From Oscillospiraceae bacterium (lineage in GTDB: Bacteria > Bacillota > Clostridia > Oscillospirales > Oscillospiraceae), in contig JAFRAF010000034.1 of NCBI GenBank assembly GCA_017405545.1, forward strand, positions 1 through 12,461: a stretch of DNA of 12,461 bases, in the 5' to 3' direction. The translations under genes were made by a program, and so were the position numbers. The notes under the pieces were generated by a model that ran no database searches, was not told where the DNA came from, and saw nothing but the letters and a program-made list of their open reading frames with translations. Below, in pieces: positions 1 through 11,566 of this stretch (the stretch's first letter is position 1; each line of letters opens with the position of its first letter).

Positions 1-1
1 C

Positions 2-2170
2 GTAGAACATGCTCAATGATGCCACAACCGCCTCTTTGGCTATGAATCCGGTGAGCAGCGCCACGATTGCCTGCCACATGCCAAAGCCCAGCGGGGTGAA
101 TATGGGGGCCAACTTGCCGCCCAGCGCGCCCAAGATACTGACGCTCATGTCATCCGTCATCCTCAGGCTTGTGTCGAAGCTCTGCAGGAACCAGAGTATG
201 ATGCTCATGACGAGAATTATGGTTCCCGCCCGGGTGAGAAAATCCCTGATCCTTTCCCACAAACGCTTAAGGCAGTTTGTCATGCTGGGCATACGGTATG
301 GCGGAAGCTCCATCACAAATGGCGCAGGCTCGCCCTTGAAGAGGGTGTTTTTGAATGTAAGCCCCGATATGATGGCCATTATCATACCGAGAATGTATAA
401 CGCAAAGATCACTATTCCCGCGCTCGCGCCGAAAAAGGCTGAGGCCACCAGTGCGTAGACGGGCAGCTTTGCTGAACAGCTCATAAATGGGACCAGCATG
501 ATTGTCATGCGCTTGTCCTTTTCATTCTCCATGGTTCTGGCGCCCATTATGGCCGGAACGGAGCAGCCGAAGCCCATCAGCATGGGTATAAAAGCCTTTC
601 CGGACAGCCCGAATCGGCGCAGGAGTCTGTCCATGATGAAAGCCGCTCTGGACATATAGCCGGAGTCCTCCAGCAGGGCCAGGAAGAAGAACAGCAGCGC
701 TATTTGCGGCAGGAAAGTGAGCACGCCGCCCACGCCGGAGATGATGCCGTCACAGATGAGGCTGACCAGCCAGGGCGCGCAGCCCATGCCCTCGAGCCCG
801 GTTCTGAGCCAGACGCTCAGGCCGTCTTCCATAAAAACCGAGACGAGATCTGAGAGCCAGGAGCCGAGGGTCGTAAATGTTATGATGAATACCAGCAGCA
901 TCGTGACGAGAAACACGGGCACCGCCAGAAAGCGGTTGGTGAGCACCTTGTCTATCCTGTCGGACAGAGTCTCCGCGTCTCTCCCGCTGCCCTTTGTTAT
1001 GGATGCCGATACGACCTTCTCGATAAAGCTGTAGCGGCTGTCTGCGATAAGCGTCTCCCTGTCGCCCAGGGAGGTCGCGCTCTCATAGTCCCTTGCTATT
1101 TTATCAAGCCTGCTTTTTTCCTCATAGCTCAGGCCCAGAGCCTCCTCCACCAGATGGTCGCCTTCTATCAGCTTTATTGACGCCCAGTGGTCCGGGAGCC
1201 CGACCTCGTGGGCCTTGTCATGGATAACTTCAAATACACGGTGGTGTATCTCGTGGGTGAAATCATCGTAGAGATCGTCCGGCTCTATGGTCCAGCCCAG
1301 ATGCATCTGCCGATGGGCCGTGTGCAGCAGCAGGTCCAGGCCCGTACCGGCCTTTGCCGAGATGGGAATGACTGGGATACCGAGTTCCTTCGCCAGCCTG
1401 TCTGTGTCTATCTTGTCCCCCGCCTTCTCGGCCTCGTCCATGAAGTTCAAGGCCACGACCATGGGCCGCTCAAGCTCCAGCAGCTGCATCGTCAGATACA
1501 TGTTGCGCTCGATATTTGTCACATCCACAAGATTGATGATGCAGTCGGGCTTTTCGTTTATTATGTGGTTTCGGGCGATTATCTCCTCCATGGAATAGGG
1601 GGAGAGGGAATATATGCCCGGCAGATCGACTATGGTTATCTCACGCCCGGACAGATTCGCTGTACCCTCTTTCTTTTCCACGGTAACGCCGGGCCAGTTG
1701 CCCCCCTATGGATGGGAGCCCGTAAGGGCGGTGTAAAGGGTCGGTTTTCCGGAATTCGGATTGCCTACAAGGGCGATTTTCATGGCCCTCGTGTCATGGA
1801 TGTTGGCGTCGTAGGGCTCCTCATGGGCATTTAGGTGATGCTCATGGTCTGCCAGCATCCTTTTAAGGACCTCAGGGTCCAGCTGACGCGGCGCGTAGCT
1901 TTTTTCCGCCTTTTTTCTCGTCCGAAGGGGAGGCAGTTCCCCTATGGTTATCTGAGCTGCGCTGTCCTTTCTTATGGACAGAGTGTAGCCGCGAAGCTTC
2001 AGCTCTACCGGATCCCCGAAGGGCGCGATTTTTACGACTTTGACTTCGGTGCCCGGGGTCAGGCCCATGTCCACAAGCCTTTTTTTCACTGCGGCGGACT
2101 TGTTTGACACGCCGGTTATTATCCCGCTCTGCCCCGGGGCGAGCATTTCCAGGGTCCGTATGTTCTCCAT
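2..2170 (-). CDS. feoB: FeoA-FeoB fusion ferrous iron transporter, internal TAG, 3' end off window
   Basis: This is a GTP-gated inner-membrane Fe(II) importer. Residues 1 to about 80 form a FeoA (SH3-like) domain. A His/Asp/Glu-rich linker follows at about 105-127, then the FeoB G domain: G1 at 136-143, G3 DLPG at 182-185, G4 NFMD at 242-245, and a G5-type ISAKAG. The membrane core follows, with the Cys-containing FGCSVPAI and SCSAKLP gate segments and IAKEAVVASL at the window edge. The frame is open from codon 156 to the edge, so only codon 155 (TAG, 1706-1708) breaks it. Several G1-region residues around it also depart from the family (GKP instead of GKT). I chose ATG 2170 because AGGTGA lies 7 bases upstream; the earlier ATG at 2191 has only a GGGAG about 16 bases away. 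A full FeoB would extend roughly another 100 or more residues. FeoA-FeoB identity is certain; whether the gene is truly broken is open. Confidence 0.93.
1704..1744 (-). other. Patch of clustered A>C/T>G departures in the FeoB G1 region, including the TAG stop
   Basis: Read on the coding strand, six codons in 41 bases differ from what FeoB proteins carry: CCG (P) for Thr in GKTT, ACC (T) for Asn in TLYN, CAT (H) for Asn and CCA (P) for Gln in SNQ, TAG for Tyr, and GGG (G) for Val in YVGN. Each is restored to the family residue by a single change of C back to A or G back to T. The intervening and flanking codons match the family well. The pattern is directly visible; its cause (base-calling error, assembly of poor reads, or real mutation) is inference. 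Confidence 0.7.
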
Positions 2171-2177
2171 AGGCAGA

Positions 2178-2183
2178 TCACCT
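2178..2183 (-). promoter_or_regulatory. Ribosome binding site deciding the feoAB start
   Basis: AGGTGA on the minus strand lies 7 bases before ATG 2170. This favours that start over the upstream in-frame ATG at 2191, which would add seven residues. Confidence 0.6.
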
Positions 2184-2229
2184 GATATCATTTAGTAATA
2201 TGTTTAACTCCCGTTTATGGAGCCATTTA

Positions 2230-3349: not shown

Positions 3350-4198
3350 TTGAAGAGCATAATCAGTACAGATAAGCTGACTTATTTTTACCCCGAGAGG
3401 GAGGGCGAGGTCTCTCCCGTGGTAATTGACACCCTGGACCTTGAGATAGAGGAGGGGAGCTTTACCGCGATTCTCGGGCATAACGGCTCGGGCAAGTCCA
3501 CCCTTGCCAAGCACTTTAACGGTGTGCTCCTGCCCATGGGCGGGAGAGTCTATGTGAGCGGTATGGACACCCGGGACGAGAACCTTATGCTGGAGATACG
3601 GCGGAGCTGCGGCCTGCTGTTCCAGAATCCCGACAACCAGATAGTGGCCAGCGTTGTGGAGGAGGATGTGGCCTTCGCGCCTGAGAACCTGGGGATGCCC
3701 CCTGCGGAGATACGTGAGCGGGTGGACGAGGCCCTTAAAGCCGTGGACATGTATGAGTACCGGGAGCGGGCGCCCCATCTGCTGTCCGGCGGACAGAAGC
3801 AGAGGGTGGCCATAGCGGGCATCCTGGCCATGCGTCCCCGCTGCATTGTGCTCGACGAGCCCACGGCCATGCTGGACCCGGGCGGCCGGGCGGAAGTCGT
3901 ACGGCTCATCGCGGAGCTCAAGTCCCGCTACGGCATCACTGTTGTCCATATTACCCACCATATCGACGAGGTTATCGGCGCTGACAGGATCGTTGTCATG
4001 CACAGGGGGAAGATAGCCATGGACGGGACGCCCGCGCAGGTATTCACTCAGGTGGAACGCCTCAAAGAGATAGGGCTGACCGTACCGGATACCACCGCGC
4101 TTTTATACGAGCTGAACAGGGGCGGATTTGATCTGCCTCTGGACGCCCTCACAGTGGACGACTGCGCCGCTGCTATATATCAAAGTTTGAAAGGCTGA
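3350..4198 (+). CDS. ecfA1: Energy-coupling factor transporter ATP-binding protein EcfA1
   Basis: One of two ABC ATPases that power group II ECF transporters, which take up vitamins and trace metals through interchangeable S-components. All ABC motifs are present in the 282 residues: Walker A GHNGSGKS (43-50), Q-loop FQNPDNQ (91-97), signature LSGGQ (135-139), Walker B CIVLDE (155-160) with following PTAMLDP, and H-loop ITHH (191-194). The FQNPDNQ and AMLDPGGR forms are typical of EcfA1. The start is TTG at 3350, one base after the methyltransferase stop. A GGGAG lies 13 bases upstream, which is long, so translation may depend on coupling to the upstream gene. ecfA2 follows after 4 bases. No S-component gene is in the window, as is normal for shared ECF modules. 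Confidence 0.95.
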   Translation: MKSIISTDKLTYFYPEREGEVSPVVIDTLDLEIEEGSFTAILGHNGSGKSTLAKHFNGVLLPMGGRVYVSGMDTRDENLMLEIRRSCGLLFQNPDNQIVASVVEEDVAFAPENLGMPPAEIRERVDEALKAVDMYEYRERAPHLLSGGQKQRVAIAGILAMRPRCIVLDEPTAMLDPGGRAEVVRLIAELKSRYGITVVHITHHIDEVIGADRIVVMHRGKIAMDGTPAQVFTQVERLKEIGLTVPDTTALLYELNRGGFDLPLDALTVDDCAAAIYQSLKG

Positions 4199-5069: not shown

Positions 5070-5864
5070 GGATATTACACTTGGCCAGTACTTTCCGGGC
5101 AATTCCGTCATACACCGGCTGGACCCCAGAACGAAGATAATCTGGCTCATACTCTATATTGTCGCCTTGTTCACGGCAAAGGGCCCTTGGGTTATATATT
5201 GGCGGCGGTGGTGGCCGTCCTGTTTATCGCGGTATCCACCGTCAGCGTAAAGACGATACTCAGCGGCCTTAAACCGCTTATCATAATTATTGTCCTTACG
5301 GGCCTGCTGAATATGTTCTACACCAGCGGGACGGTGCTGGTGGAGTTCTGGATAATAAAAATCACCAGAGAGGGCATAATCAACGCGGCGTACATGGTGA
5401 GCCGTATAATCATGCTCATTACGGCGACCTTCATGCTCACATATACGACCTCGCCCCTGTCCCTCACAGACGGGCTCGAGCGGCTGCTGTCGTTCCTTAA
5501 AAGGTTCAAGGTGCCGATACACGAGCTGTCCATGATGATGAGCATAGCCCTGCGCTTTATACCCACGCTCATTGAGGAGACCGGCAAGATCATGAACGCC
5601 CAGAATGCCAGGGGAGCGGATTTCGATACGGGCGGGCTTGTGAAAAAGGCCAAGGCCATGATACCCCTGCTTGTGCCGCTGTTTATCAGCGCTTTCAAGC
5701 GGGCGGACGAGCTGGCCGTTGCAATGGAGAGCCGCTGCTACCACGGCGGAGAGGGGCGCACGAGGATGCGTGTGCTGCGAATGAGAGCGGCGGACTGGGT
5801 CGTTATCGCCTTGAGCATAATGCTCTGTGTGGCCTCATGGCTGTTAAGAGGAGTGACTCTTTGA
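5062..5864 (+). CDS. ecfT: Energy-coupling factor transporter transmembrane protein EcfT, frame broken at ~5185
   Basis: EcfT is the membrane scaffold joining EcfA1/A2 to the S-components. The gene starts at GTG 5062, overlapping ecfA2, and begins IKDITLGQYFPGNSVIHRLD, a standard EcfT start. After about 43 codons (FTAKGPW) the frame leads to a TAA at 5248-5250. The rest of the protein (GYILAAVVAVLF onward) continues in the -1 frame to TGA 5862-5864. With one extra G in the GGG at 5189-5191 the product would be 267 residues, the normal family length. The coupling-helix motifs are present: NARGAD and, in variant form, ESRCYHGGEGRTR (family forms usually have A-R). Either a base was lost, in the cell or in sequencing, or ribosomes shift at an AAAGGGC heptamer (5178-5184). 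The stop overlaps the truA start in TGATG. Confidence 0.88.
5178..5184 (+). other. Heptamer of -1 slippery form at the ecfT frame break
   Basis: Read in the starting frame the sequence is gcA AAG GGC, which fits the X XXY YYZ rule for -1 frameshifting. A -1 slip here would join directly to the downstream EcfT frame, giving GPLGYIL rather than GPWGYIL. A possible stem (5204-5211 with 5236-5243) begins 19 bases after the heptamer, further than in known stimulators. I know of no report of frameshifting in ecfT, so a missing G is the simpler explanation. Confidence 0.2.
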
Positions 5865-6643
5865 TGAGGAATATAGCTCTGCGGCTGAGATATGACGGTA
5901 CGGCCTACCACGGCTGGCAGATACAGCGTGATCAGGACACGGTACAGCAGCAGCTGCAGCAGGCGCTGACGAAGCTCTGCTGCCACGAGGTAAAGATCGT
6001 GGGCTGCGGAAGAACGGACGCCGGCGTCCACGCCGAGCGCTATTGCGCCAACTTCCGCTCCGACACCAGAATACCCATTGACAGACTGCCTTTGGCAATA
6101 AACGGGCAGCTGCCTGAGGATATATGCGTACAGGCCGCGATTGAGGCCCCCGAGGATTTCAACTCCATACTGTCATGTAAAAAGAAAGAGTACACTTATC
6201 TGATATACAATTCACGAATAAAAGATCCCTTTTTGCGTTCCAGGGCCTGGTTTTATCCCTCGCCCCTGAAGCGTGATGTTATGAGAGAGGCCGCGTCCAT
6301 GTTTGTGGGCACCCACGATTTCGCGGCCGTGCGGAGCGTGGGGACGGAGACAAAGACCACGGTTCGCACCGTATATTACTACGAGGTCGAGGGAGAGGGA
6401 CCCATATTCAGGCTCCGTGTCTGCGCAAACGGCTTCCTGTACAACATGGCAAGGGCCATGGCCGGGACGGTTATCTACGCCTCGGAGGGAAAGATAAGAC
6501 CCGGAGATATCCCCGGACTGCTTGAAAAGGGCGACAGAAGGCTGGCAGGTCCCACCGTGCCCGCCTGCGGCCTGTATATGACGCGGCTGTGGTATGACGG
6601 GGCTGTGGGAGAAATGATGGAAAGGGCTGGAGATGCGATGTGA
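5864..6643 (+). CDS. truA: tRNA pseudouridine(38-40) synthase TruA
   Basis: TruA converts uridines 38-40 of the tRNA anticodon arm to pseudouridine and acts as a homodimer in the cytoplasm. The 259 residues begin RNIALRLRYDGTAYHGWQIQ, the standard TruA N-terminus. The catalytic aspartate is D52 in GCGRTDAGVHA. Later conserved stretches include KKEYTYLIYN, MFVGTHDF, and FLYNMARAMAGT near the C-terminus. I chose ATG 5864, which overlaps the ecfT stop (TGATG) and has GAGGAG 10 bases upstream. An upstream ATG at 5837 lies inside ecfT and would add nine uncharacteristic residues. The gene ends in GTGA, overlapping the next start by 4 bases. Position after ecfA1-A2-T is the common Firmicutes arrangement. 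It looks complete. Confidence 0.95.
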   Translation: MRNIALRLRYDGTAYHGWQIQRDQDTVQQQLQQALTKLCCHEVKIVGCGRTDAGVHAERYCANFRSDTRIPIDRLPLAINGQLPEDICVQAAIEAPEDFNSILSCKKKEYTYLIYNSRIKDPFLRSRAWFYPSPLKRDVMREAASMFVGTHDFAAVRSVGTETKTTVRTVYYYEVEGEGPIFRLRVCANGFLYNMARAMAGTVIYASEGKIRPGDIPGLLEKGDRRLAGPTVPACGLYMTRLWYDGAVGEMMERAGDAM

Positions 6644-7767
6644 AATTGCCGTTTGAAATAAAAATGCCGGATCTGTCTGAGAACCGGAATATAATAATCA
6701 TAGCCGCAGCCTGCCTGCTCGTGATAATACTGCTTGTCGTACTCATTGCGACCGGGGCCATATCCTTCGGAGGGCAGCGCGACGCCGACGCCGGGCCGGA
6801 CACGGACCGGAAAGGCGACACGGTCTTTTACTATGAGACCGGCAGCCGTGCTGTTTTCGGCGACCTCAACGGTCGGCTCATGGTGGCCTCATCTCTGGGA
6901 GCATCCTTTTATAACAGGGACGGCAGCGAGGTGTTTACAAGCGTAAGGCCCATGGACTGGCCGGTGCTAAGCACAGGCGGCGGCAAGGCCGCGGTGTGGG
7001 AGACCGGCGGGGATAAGTTCATGACCGTAGACTCGGGCGGCATAGACATGGACATGAAAACCGAGAGCCCGGTTATCACGGCTTCGCTCAACGAAAAGGG
7101 CTGGCTCTGCCTTTGCACTGAGGACAGCGCCTATTACGGTGTCGTGACTGTGTATAATGACAAGGGCGTGGCCGAATACAAATGGTATTCCGGCAACGGA
7201 TATCTGATGAACGCGAAGCTGGCGGACAACTGCAAGGACATGGCTGTCCTTACACTCAACACTGAGGGGAGCGCCATTGTCTACTATAAATTGGACAGTG
7301 AAGAGGAACAGGCGCGTTTTGAGCTTGACGGGGAGCTTATAATTGATATATGCTATACATCGGCGGGTGATCTCGCTGTCCTCAGCAATAACTGCCTGCG
7401 CATACTCAGCGGAGATACCCTGAAGGCAAAGTTTGATTTCCCGTCACAGCATTTGGGCGCCTATGCCTTTGCCGATGGCTATACAGTGATATTCTGCAAT
7501 GAAAGCCAGTTCGGAAACGGCGGCAGTCTGATAACGCTCAATGACAGCTGCGAGGTCATCGGGCTTGTGGAGCTGGGAAAAAACGTGGATGTAATAGCGA
7601 CTTGCGGCAGCAGAGTGGCCACGCTCAGCGCGGATGTTGTCACCGAGTATAACCGGGCTCTTGACCAGAAGGACTGTTATGAGACGGATACCGGAACGAT
7701 AAGCATCATCGTGGGTTCGGACAAATCTGTGCTCGCGCTGGGAAAATACAGCGCGGAACGGTTTTAA
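6640..7767 (+). CDS. Membrane-anchored protein with extracytoplasmic beta-rich domain, DUF5711-like
   Basis: Function unknown. The 375 residues start with about 18 charged or mixed residues, then one strong membrane segment (about 19-42, IIIIAAACLLVIILLVVLIA), then a long soluble part that should lie outside the membrane. That part is rich in short repeated beta-strand stretches with Gly/Asp turns, for example LDGELIIDICYTSAGDLAVL, which suggests a beta-propeller. The architecture and the position before a cvpA-like gene fit the DUF5711 family; that family assignment is from memory and not tested. The start GTG 6640 overlaps the truA stop by 4 bases, so it is translationally coupled to truA. 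It is followed by a 62-base gap before cvpA. No catalytic motif is visible. Confidence 0.72.
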   Translation: MKLPFEIKMPDLSENRNIIIIAAACLLVIILLVVLIATGAISFGGQRDADAGPDTDRKGDTVFYYETGSRAVFGDLNGRLMVASSLGASFYNRDGSEVFTSVRPMDWPVLSTGGGKAAVWETGGDKFMTVDSGGIDMDMKTESPVITASLNEKGWLCLCTEDSAYYGVVTVYNDKGVAEYKWYSGNGYLMNAKLADNCKDMAVLTLNTEGSAIVYYKLDSEEEQARFELDGELIIDICYTSAGDLAVLSNNCLRILSGDTLKAKFDFPSQHLGAYAFADGYTVIFCNESQFGNGGSLITLNDSCEVIGLVELGKNVDVIATCGSRVATLSADVVTEYNRALDQKDCYETDTGTISIIVGSDKSVLALGKYSAERF

Positions 7768-9259: not shown

Positions 9260-11566
9260 ATGCAACCGACTCTTTGTGCCAGATGTAAGAAAAATGTGGC
9301 TGTAATATTTATTACCAAGATAGAAAACGGTCAGTCCACAAATGAGGGACTGTGTCTTAAATGCGCAAGGGAATTGAAAATAAAGCCTGTTGATGATATA
9401 ATACAGAAAATGGGCCTGTCCGATGAGGATCTGGAAAACCTGTCCGATGAGATGATGCACGCCTTCGGCGGGGTGGAGAGTCTCACCCTGTCCGACGACG
9501 ACAGCGGGGATGACGACGATGAGAGCGGAAAGACCGCAACCTTCCCCTTCCTCAATAAGCTTTTTTCCGGACCGGATTCCCCAATACCGAATCCCGAGAA
9601 GTCCCGTCCCGGAAGGGATGGTTCCAGGGAGGAGAAAAAAGAGAAGGAGAAAAAGAAAAAGTTTCTTGACAACTATTGCATCTGCCTGACAAAGCGGGCC
9701 AGAGAAGGCAAGCTGGATAAAATGATAGGCAGAGAAACCGAGACTGAGCGTGTCGTTCAGATACTCAACCGCAGACAGAAGAATAACCCCTGCCTCATAG
9801 GCGAGCCCGGAGTCGGAAAAACGGCTATAGCCGAGGGCCTTGCCCAGCGCATAGCTGAAAAAGACGTGCCCTACAAGCTTCGGGAAAAAGAGGTATATCT
9901 TCTGGATCTGACCGCCCTGGTGGCGGGCACCCAGTTCCGCGGCCAGTTTGAGTCCAGAATGAAGGGCCTTATAGAGGAGATAAGGTCAGAGGGCAATGTG
10001 ATATTGGTCATCGACGAGGTCCACAACCTTGTGGGGGCCGGCGACGCCGAGGGCTCCATGAATGCGGCCAACATCCTCAAGCCCGCCCTGTCAAGGGGCG
10101 AGATACAGGTCATCGGCGCCACCACATTTGCCGAGTACCGTTCCCATATAGAAAAGGATTCCGCCCTTGAGCGGCGCTTCCAGCCCGTTATTGTCAACGA
10201 GCCGTCAATCGAGGACAGCGTTGCCATAATAAAGGGCATCGCCCACTACTACGAGCAGTTCCACGGGGTAAAGATACCCGACGCCATTGCAAGGCAGGCT
10301 GTCATACTGTCTGAGCGGTATATCACAGACCGCTTCCTGCCGGATAAGGCCATCGATCTGATTGACGAGGCCTGCTCGGATGTGAACCTGAAAAACAAGG
10401 ACTACGCCGAAGCGGCCACCCTTGAAAAAGAGCGGGACGATATAAGCAAAGAAAGAGAGCTCCTGCTGAGTACTACCGAGGGGGAGGGTGACTATGAGCG
10501 GCTGGCGGCCCTGCGCAGCCGCGAGATGCAGATCAACGAGCAGCTTGACAGGATAGCGGCAAAGGGCATGCCGGAGCTGGGCGTGGATAATCTTGCCAGG
10601 GTCATCGAGCTCTGGACACACATACCGGCCAGCAGCATCCAGGAGGATGAGCACAAGCGTTTGAGCGAGCTGGATAAGCGGCTTAAACAGCATATCGTCG
10701 GTCAGGATGAGGCTGTGGATTTGGTCTGTGCCGCCATAAAGCGCGGAAGAGTGGGCATATCACCGAAGCGCAAGCCCGTGTCATTCATTTTTGTGGGCTC
10801 CACAGGCGTGGGTAAGACCGAGCTTGTCAAGCGGCTTGCGGAGGATCTGTTCAGCGAGCCGGAGTCCCTCATAAGGCTCGACATGTCCGAGTTCATGGAA
10901 AAGCACGCGGTGTCCCGTATAATCGGTTCGCCTCCGGGCTATGTGGGCTATGACGAGGCGGGACAGCTCACGGAGAAGATACGCCGCAGACCCTATTCCG
11001 TGGTGCTCTTCGACGAGATAGAGAAGGCCCATCCCGACGTGATGAATATCCTGCTCCAGATTCTGGACGACGGGCACATCACCGACGCCCACGGCCGCTC
11101 CGTCAATTTCGAAAACACGGTCATAATCATGACCACTAACGCCGGCAGCGACAGGAAGGACGGCTCTGTGGGCTTCAACCGCAGCATAAATGAGCAGGGC
11201 AAGGAGAAAGCTATAAAGGCGCTCAACGATTTCCTGCGCCCCGAATTCATAAACAGGGTAGATGAGATCGTATACTTCAACAAGCTCACGGAGGAAAACT
11301 TCCGGAATATCGCCGGCATACTCCTCGGGGAGCTGAAGGACTGCATGGCGGAAAAGGGCATAGAGCTCAGCTATGATGACAGTGTAATAGACTATCTCAC
11401 AAAGGAATCTTATTCCATCACCTATGGCGCGCGGAACCTCAGACGCACCATACAGAAGGAAGTTGAGGACAAAATAGCCGAGGAGATAATTTCAAATTAC
11501 GCACACCCCCTGAGCCGAATTGGAATTACGGCTGTGGAGGGCAAAATACAAGTAATTGGAGTATAG
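9260..11566 (+). CDS. clpE: ClpE-like Clp ATPase with N-terminal zinc finger
   Basis: An HSP100 AAA+ unfoldase expected to feed proteins to ClpP. The 768 residues start with a four-cysteine zinc finger (C6, C9, C32, C35), the mark of ClpE, in place of the Clp-N repeat domain of ClpC. A charged linker follows, acidic at 78-90 and Lys/Glu-rich at 123-134. The first AAA+ domain has Walker A GEPGVGKT (181-188), Walker B VILVIDE (247-253), pore loop FRGQF (226-230), and arginines R305/R306. A UVR-like coiled segment (about 376-400) follows. The second AAA+ domain has Walker A GSTGVGKT (513-520), Walker B VVLFDE (581-586), pore loop GYVGYDE (560-566), a ClpP-docking VGF (637-639), and R666 in [18 protein letters not shown] sits 8 bases before ATG 9260. 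At 768 residues it is longer than the roughly 700 of B. subtilis ClpE. The stop is TAG. Confidence 0.9.

Follow-up and report, generated by a model that had tools for sequence, protein, structure and literature searches.

The window analysed here, a stretch of 12,461 nucleotides that makes up the entire contig C27 of the genome G000, opens with a gene for a fused FeoA-FeoB ferrous iron transporter, feoAB, which lies on the minus strand at 1..2191, is cut off at the contig start and was recognized by a FeoB profile, a FeoA model and its nearest relative, P0001. Positions 2-1681 alone, comprising the GTPase and transmembrane parts, match the NCBIfam feoB profile TIGR00437 at 539.7 bits (cut-off 315.65), and the FeoA model PRK09555 scores 45.7 bits on 1706-2191, under its cut-off of 102. 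P0001 is uninterrupted, 804 aa long and 86 % identical over a 560-aa query; 74 PDB sequences match it, FeoB G domains best, and the corresponding family is PF02421. In frame, domain order and constraint, the window gene is like the FeoAB fusions and FeoB transporters described by TIGR00437, but it differs from this family in that its consensus has an altered G1 Thr, an altered next conserved segment and a stop. Elsewhere in the genome, contig C176 (L002, L164) carries a second Feo system, whose FeoB has an intact G1 and which, judged by eye, has a separate FeoA-like reading frame upstream. The few named relatives among the matches listed were mostly Oscillospiraceae or other Clostridia, so that the organism itself probably belongs there. 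RNA families and tRNAs were sought in the window and none was found, and a plasmid search returned three weak matches only.

The departures of feoAB from its family are concentrated in a patch at 1703..1744 (minus strand), in which 7 of 14 codons carry residues unseen in relatives, affecting the Thr of G1 (the P-loop) and the SNQYVGNW segment. G1 has the form GxxxxGK[T/S], and its Thr binds Mg; here, the consensus reads GNPNSGKP, at a column where T follows GK in 119/119 relatives. Furthermore, the reading frame is interrupted by a single in-frame TAG at 1706..1708 (minus strand), in place of a Tyr present in 119/119 relatives, and is open on both sides of it. An earlier, sequence-only reading had located the changed bases at 1704-1744 in a minus-strand feoB gene, with the G1 Thr removed, a stop introduced and an open, family-like frame to either side, and its coordinates and strand were confirmed. 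To describe the changes themselves, the translated gene, with X at the stop and numbered along the translation of 2191..1, was aligned with its 120 best homologues, of which 119 have a residue at the patch columns. The residues that depart are T150, F153, N154, N160, Q161, Y162 and V163, and the corresponding changes are T>P, F>Y, N>T, N>H, Q>P, Y>stop and V>G (codons 150-163). At each of the seven columns, the window residue occurs in 0/119 relatives; six of the columns are 100 % conserved as rounded, N160 92 %. There are thus seven departures, not the six initially counted, as F>Y had been missed: GKTTLYN had been taken for the family form, while position 153 is F in 119/119 relatives and in both FeoB G-domain structures for which an alignment was shown.

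With respect to substitution classes, A>C or T>G covers five of the seven changes, and F>Y is a T>A change. The stop is either T>G or C>G, because either Tyr codon could be its parent; the two Tyr codons are equally used in long open stretches of the sampled contigs. The assertion that a single C-to-A or G-to-T reversal restores each changed codon was accordingly too broad, as five of the seven changes fit it and one possibly does. By hand arithmetic, with the 12 substitution classes assumed equally likely, the probability that at least five of seven changes fall into two named classes is about 0.002, a bias that is notable, if weaker than six of six.

The clustering itself is real. In feoAB, 341 columns are near-invariant (at least 98 % conserved); eight of them hold a residue unseen in relatives, and six of these eight lie within 14 codons (six and not seven, since N160 is under the conservation threshold), an arrangement that 0/200,000 shuffles reached. 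The remaining two, beyond the patch, are R>K and V>I, both conservative. A genuine pseudogene would be expected to show relaxed constraint beyond its lesion, and two conservative departures in 341 columns do not show it. Ordinary decay of a redundant feoAB copy would account for an in-frame stop, and the FeoB on C176, with its intact G1, would be the other copy; such decay, however, would scatter along the gene, with transitions and indels, instead of leaving the frame open on either side and nearly every conserved column intact, and we consider it very improbable, in agreement with the earlier impression that the cluster does not look like ordinary pseudogene decay. As far as the alignments tell, the lesion in feoAB is a patch, not decay. 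The relatives and the constraint on the rest of the gene together suggest that the real feoAB gene is intact.

A window-wide control placed these numbers in a broader frame. Across 1,019 conserved columns in seven genes, compared with 174 relative loci (each counted once, some genomes contributing several; Mrp and PgsA had no usable columns), there were 24 departures, 16 of them in FeoAB (6 in the patch). The six other genes account for the remaining 8, among which there is no single-step A>C or T>G and three are multi-step. In FeoAB beyond the patch, A>C or T>G accounts for 3/10 departures (I>L, S>A and S>A), and two of these three residues are common to P0001. A mutT-type mutator lineage would yield A:T>C:G changes, as 8-oxo-dGTP opposite A leads to A to C transversions according to PMC3556519. 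Against it, feoAB beyond the patch differs from P0001 by 8 A>C and T>G steps vs 9 C>A and G>T steps, a count made in this one gene over 61 single steps of unambiguous class and without the 14 ambiguous and 18 multi-step differences, and a mutator would not restrict its changes to 41 bp, which together make such a lineage hardly credible. If gene conversion or a chimeric assembly had involved a paralogue or another species, the second FeoB of the genome would be a candidate partner, but the C176 copy has the normal motif, without the changed residues, and is excluded as donor, and none of the seven residues is found in any of the 119 relatives. Moreover, identity to P0001 is 127/142 before the patch and 489/567 after it, and because both flanks are similarly close to this relative there is no sign of a chimeric joint; we hold this origin to be extremely improbable.

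A second patch was found in the same assembly, in livG on contig C1 (L035, about 11206-11256, minus strand), whose TAG was ranked first by a screen for in-frame stops. Relative to the 93 %-identical P0198, livG shows K>stop, K>T, I>L and M>L in 17 codons, that is, an in-frame TAG and three A>C changes. The three new residues occur in 0/120 homologues, in which the I and M sites are conserved in 120/120 and the second-site K in 113/120. In a comparison with 11 relatives, 153 conserved columns contained no departures other than two A>C changes, 12 and 16 codons past the stop; of the 176 columns that are at least 95 % conserved, four show a residue absent from relatives, two of them being sites of the patch. 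The rest of livG has 15 scattered differences from P0198, two of which are unseen in relatives and two of which are A>C or T>G. Furthermore, the I>L change replaces ATA, which makes up 49 % of Ile codons in the sampled stretches, with CTA, which makes up 1 % of their Leu codons. The column of the stop is variable (Q 89, E 18, K 6, D 4, R 2, F 1), and for this reason it is uncertain from which codon the stop arose, with C>T, a transition, among the possible steps: depending on the parent, the stop is A>T, C>T or G>T.

The patches in feoAB and livG are alike in length (about 40-50 bp), in their in-frame TAG and in an A:T-transversion spectrum. When both are pooled and the nearest relatives are taken as parents, A:T>C:G makes up 8/11 changes and T>A one (F>Y); for the two stops, the class varies with the parent codon. 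With suitable parent codons assumed for these two stops, each of the 11 changes can be expressed as an adenine turned into C or T on either of the read strands. The presence of more than one patch in the assembly is what would be expected of a base-calling artefact. As the livG patch was found through its stop codon, patches that lack a stop would escape detection. Among 30 ABC-ATPase loci (49 matches, some overlapping), no further clear patch was seen in the 23 usable columns, outside of which the livG patch itself lies.

The in-frame-stop screen covered 41/374 contigs, or 210,310/1,782,791 bases of G000, and its output, which included many natural gene ends, was sorted by eye, rank alone being no proof. 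In addition to livG, it yielded a TAG at 7043-7045 (minus strand) of contig C8 (L042), in an RsbU-like phosphatase gene assigned by eye and from the alignment of relatives, those listed being at most 43 % identical. On contig C174 (L163), another match to the RsbU-like query, at 6265-6906 (minus strand), has one TAG inside, and a TAG at 4173-4175 (minus strand) of contig C3 (L037) lies within what by eye appears to be a single small basic protein. The three stops judged by eye to lie inside conserved genes (C27, C1 and C8) are all TAG, as would be the case if this organism decoded TAG as an amino acid. TAG nevertheless ends 24/117 long open stretches on the 41 sampled contigs and is thus an ordinary stop here, and recoding would leave the six adjoining missense departures of feoAB unexplained; it strikes us as barely conceivable. 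None of chimera, mutator, gene conversion and recoding is supported.

Two further sites lie in the window itself. In ecfT (plus strand), an apparent one-base loss at 5169..5190, with approximate borders, changes the frame where relatives are continuous, as seen in a three-frame translation set against 12 relatives; the downstream frame was matched in 59/60 genomes, its own included. The frame change falls in a short segment made up of G and C runs. At 3947-3964 (plus strand), EcfA1 has L>H and M>I, 15 bases apart, at columns invariant in 55/55 relative loci; not being A:T>C:G, these departures are perhaps lineage-specific. A gene-structure decoder run over the same 210,310 bases reported 1 interior stop, that of livG, and 12 frame changes, and it overlooked both the FeoB stop and the ecfT frameshift.

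The explanation that we favour, at a probability of about 0.86, is that the feoAB patch represents a consensus error from poor reads, the gene in the cell presumably being intact. Assemblers bridge thinly covered stretches. Here, a thinly covered stretch of feoAB would have been closed by one or few low-quality reads, presumably of an Illumina type, with miscalls of adenine, chiefly to C and in some cases to T, which on opposite-strand reads give T>G and T>A; the gene as it exists in the cell would then encode a normal FeoAB transporter. Several observations favour this reading: G000 is a draft assembly of 1,782,791 bases in 374 contigs, 68.56 % complete and 2.14 % contaminated; ecfT, also on C27, shows an apparent one-base loss and so points to local consensus error; a second A>C-dominated patch with a TAG exists in livG; and 0/119 relatives carry any of the seven feoAB residues, the rest of that gene being without A:T>C:G bias. 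On these grounds, the poor-read consensus that the sequence-only reading had put first is also the best supported, and the patch is most likely not a real feature. Points against an artefact are that the patch is interior to the contig, 1.7 kb from its end, that the sampled part of the assembly looks mostly sound according to the decoder, and that the cell, having an intact FeoB on C176, could tolerate losing this copy.

The adenine miscalls of four-colour Illumina sequencing, as described in parts of PMC3156955, PMC2745764 and PMC4381044, can account for the spectrum of both patches if the two stops arose from suitable parent codons. In this chemistry, one laser serves A and C and the other G and T, and the members of each pair are confused (passages of PMC4381044 and PMC3156955); at low quality, A is miscalled chiefly as C (in a passage of PMC3156955), and in late cycles A is called T through T accumulation (in a passage of PMC2745764). 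The confusion of laser pairs alone does not cover the patch, however, because F>Y is T>A, which needs A>T, and the stop is ambiguous. The comparison also differs in that the errors here would have reached the consensus and that the platform is assumed. Moreover, in one MiSeq study T was misread most often as C and not as G (part of PMC4381044), and T>C misreads, the commonest for T in that study, are absent from both patches. According to PMC11017572, internal stops are a sign of a poor assembly, and poor data and low coverage lead to spurious ones; the spurious pseudogenes of draft bacterial assemblies treated there share with feoAB an internal stop in a conserved gene and a fragmented assembly, but those are internal stops and frameshifts, whereas here a multi-base patch is involved.

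Three further ideas were set aside. Error-triggering inverted repeats were sought in 101-base stretches around both patches, and on neither strand do these fold more stably than shuffled sequences (z 0.07 to 0.93). A meeting of two read tails, with A>C on the left and T>G on the right, would explain six changes, but the T>A at 1734 does not follow this arrangement. A diversity-generating retroelement was set aside because coding-strand T is altered as well as A and because no reverse transcriptase is among the matches listed for 10 window proteins.

If the changes were nevertheless real, they could stem from a recent multi-hit event, for which an error-prone polymerase tract (SOS, translesion or gap repair) is an unlikely candidate. 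Such a tract would have introduced several A:T transversions over about 40-50 bp in feoAB and, as a separate event, in livG, both genes being inactivated by changes too young for further decay, a course of events to which we give little credence. Two patches of similar length and like A:T-transversion spectrum would fit it, SOS mutator activity raises transversions in E. coli (in a passage of PMC2680738), and the loss of feoAB might be tolerated owing to the second FeoB on C176. On the other hand, the transversions linked to pol V are CG>AT and AT>TA, and not AT>CG, in the passages of PMC2680738, and two consensus-level knock-outs without other decay require two events, both of which became common. 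The lesion was also sought elsewhere: the 161-aa truncated FeoAB piece gave 77 matches among 5.8 billion proteins, the best 62 % identical and none the same protein, the window's own being likewise unlisted, and a search of the genome collection for the same lesion returned 11 loci with 28-68 % identity in the best segment, near-identical records possibly being left out. That both patches are real, the trace of a repair or translesion tract that leaves dense A:T transversions in this lineage, comparable to clustered local hypermutation but in a bacterium and seen before purifying selection could remove it, is a reading that we would put at long odds.

The consequences differ for the two cases. 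If the consensus were true, the FeoB part would lack its G1 Thr and the product would stop after 161 residues; should the artefact reading be wrong, the lesion would exemplify dense local transversion mutagenesis in nature. Whether or not the consensus holds, the second FeoB, on C176, may provide for iron uptake. If, instead, consensus error from poor reads is the right explanation, neither a pseudogene nor a FeoB with an altered P-loop should be annotated at feoAB, and the same caution would apply to other genes of this assembly. Further, dense A:T-transversion patches at family-invariant positions, together with an in-frame TAG, could serve to flag errors in draft assemblies even without the reads.
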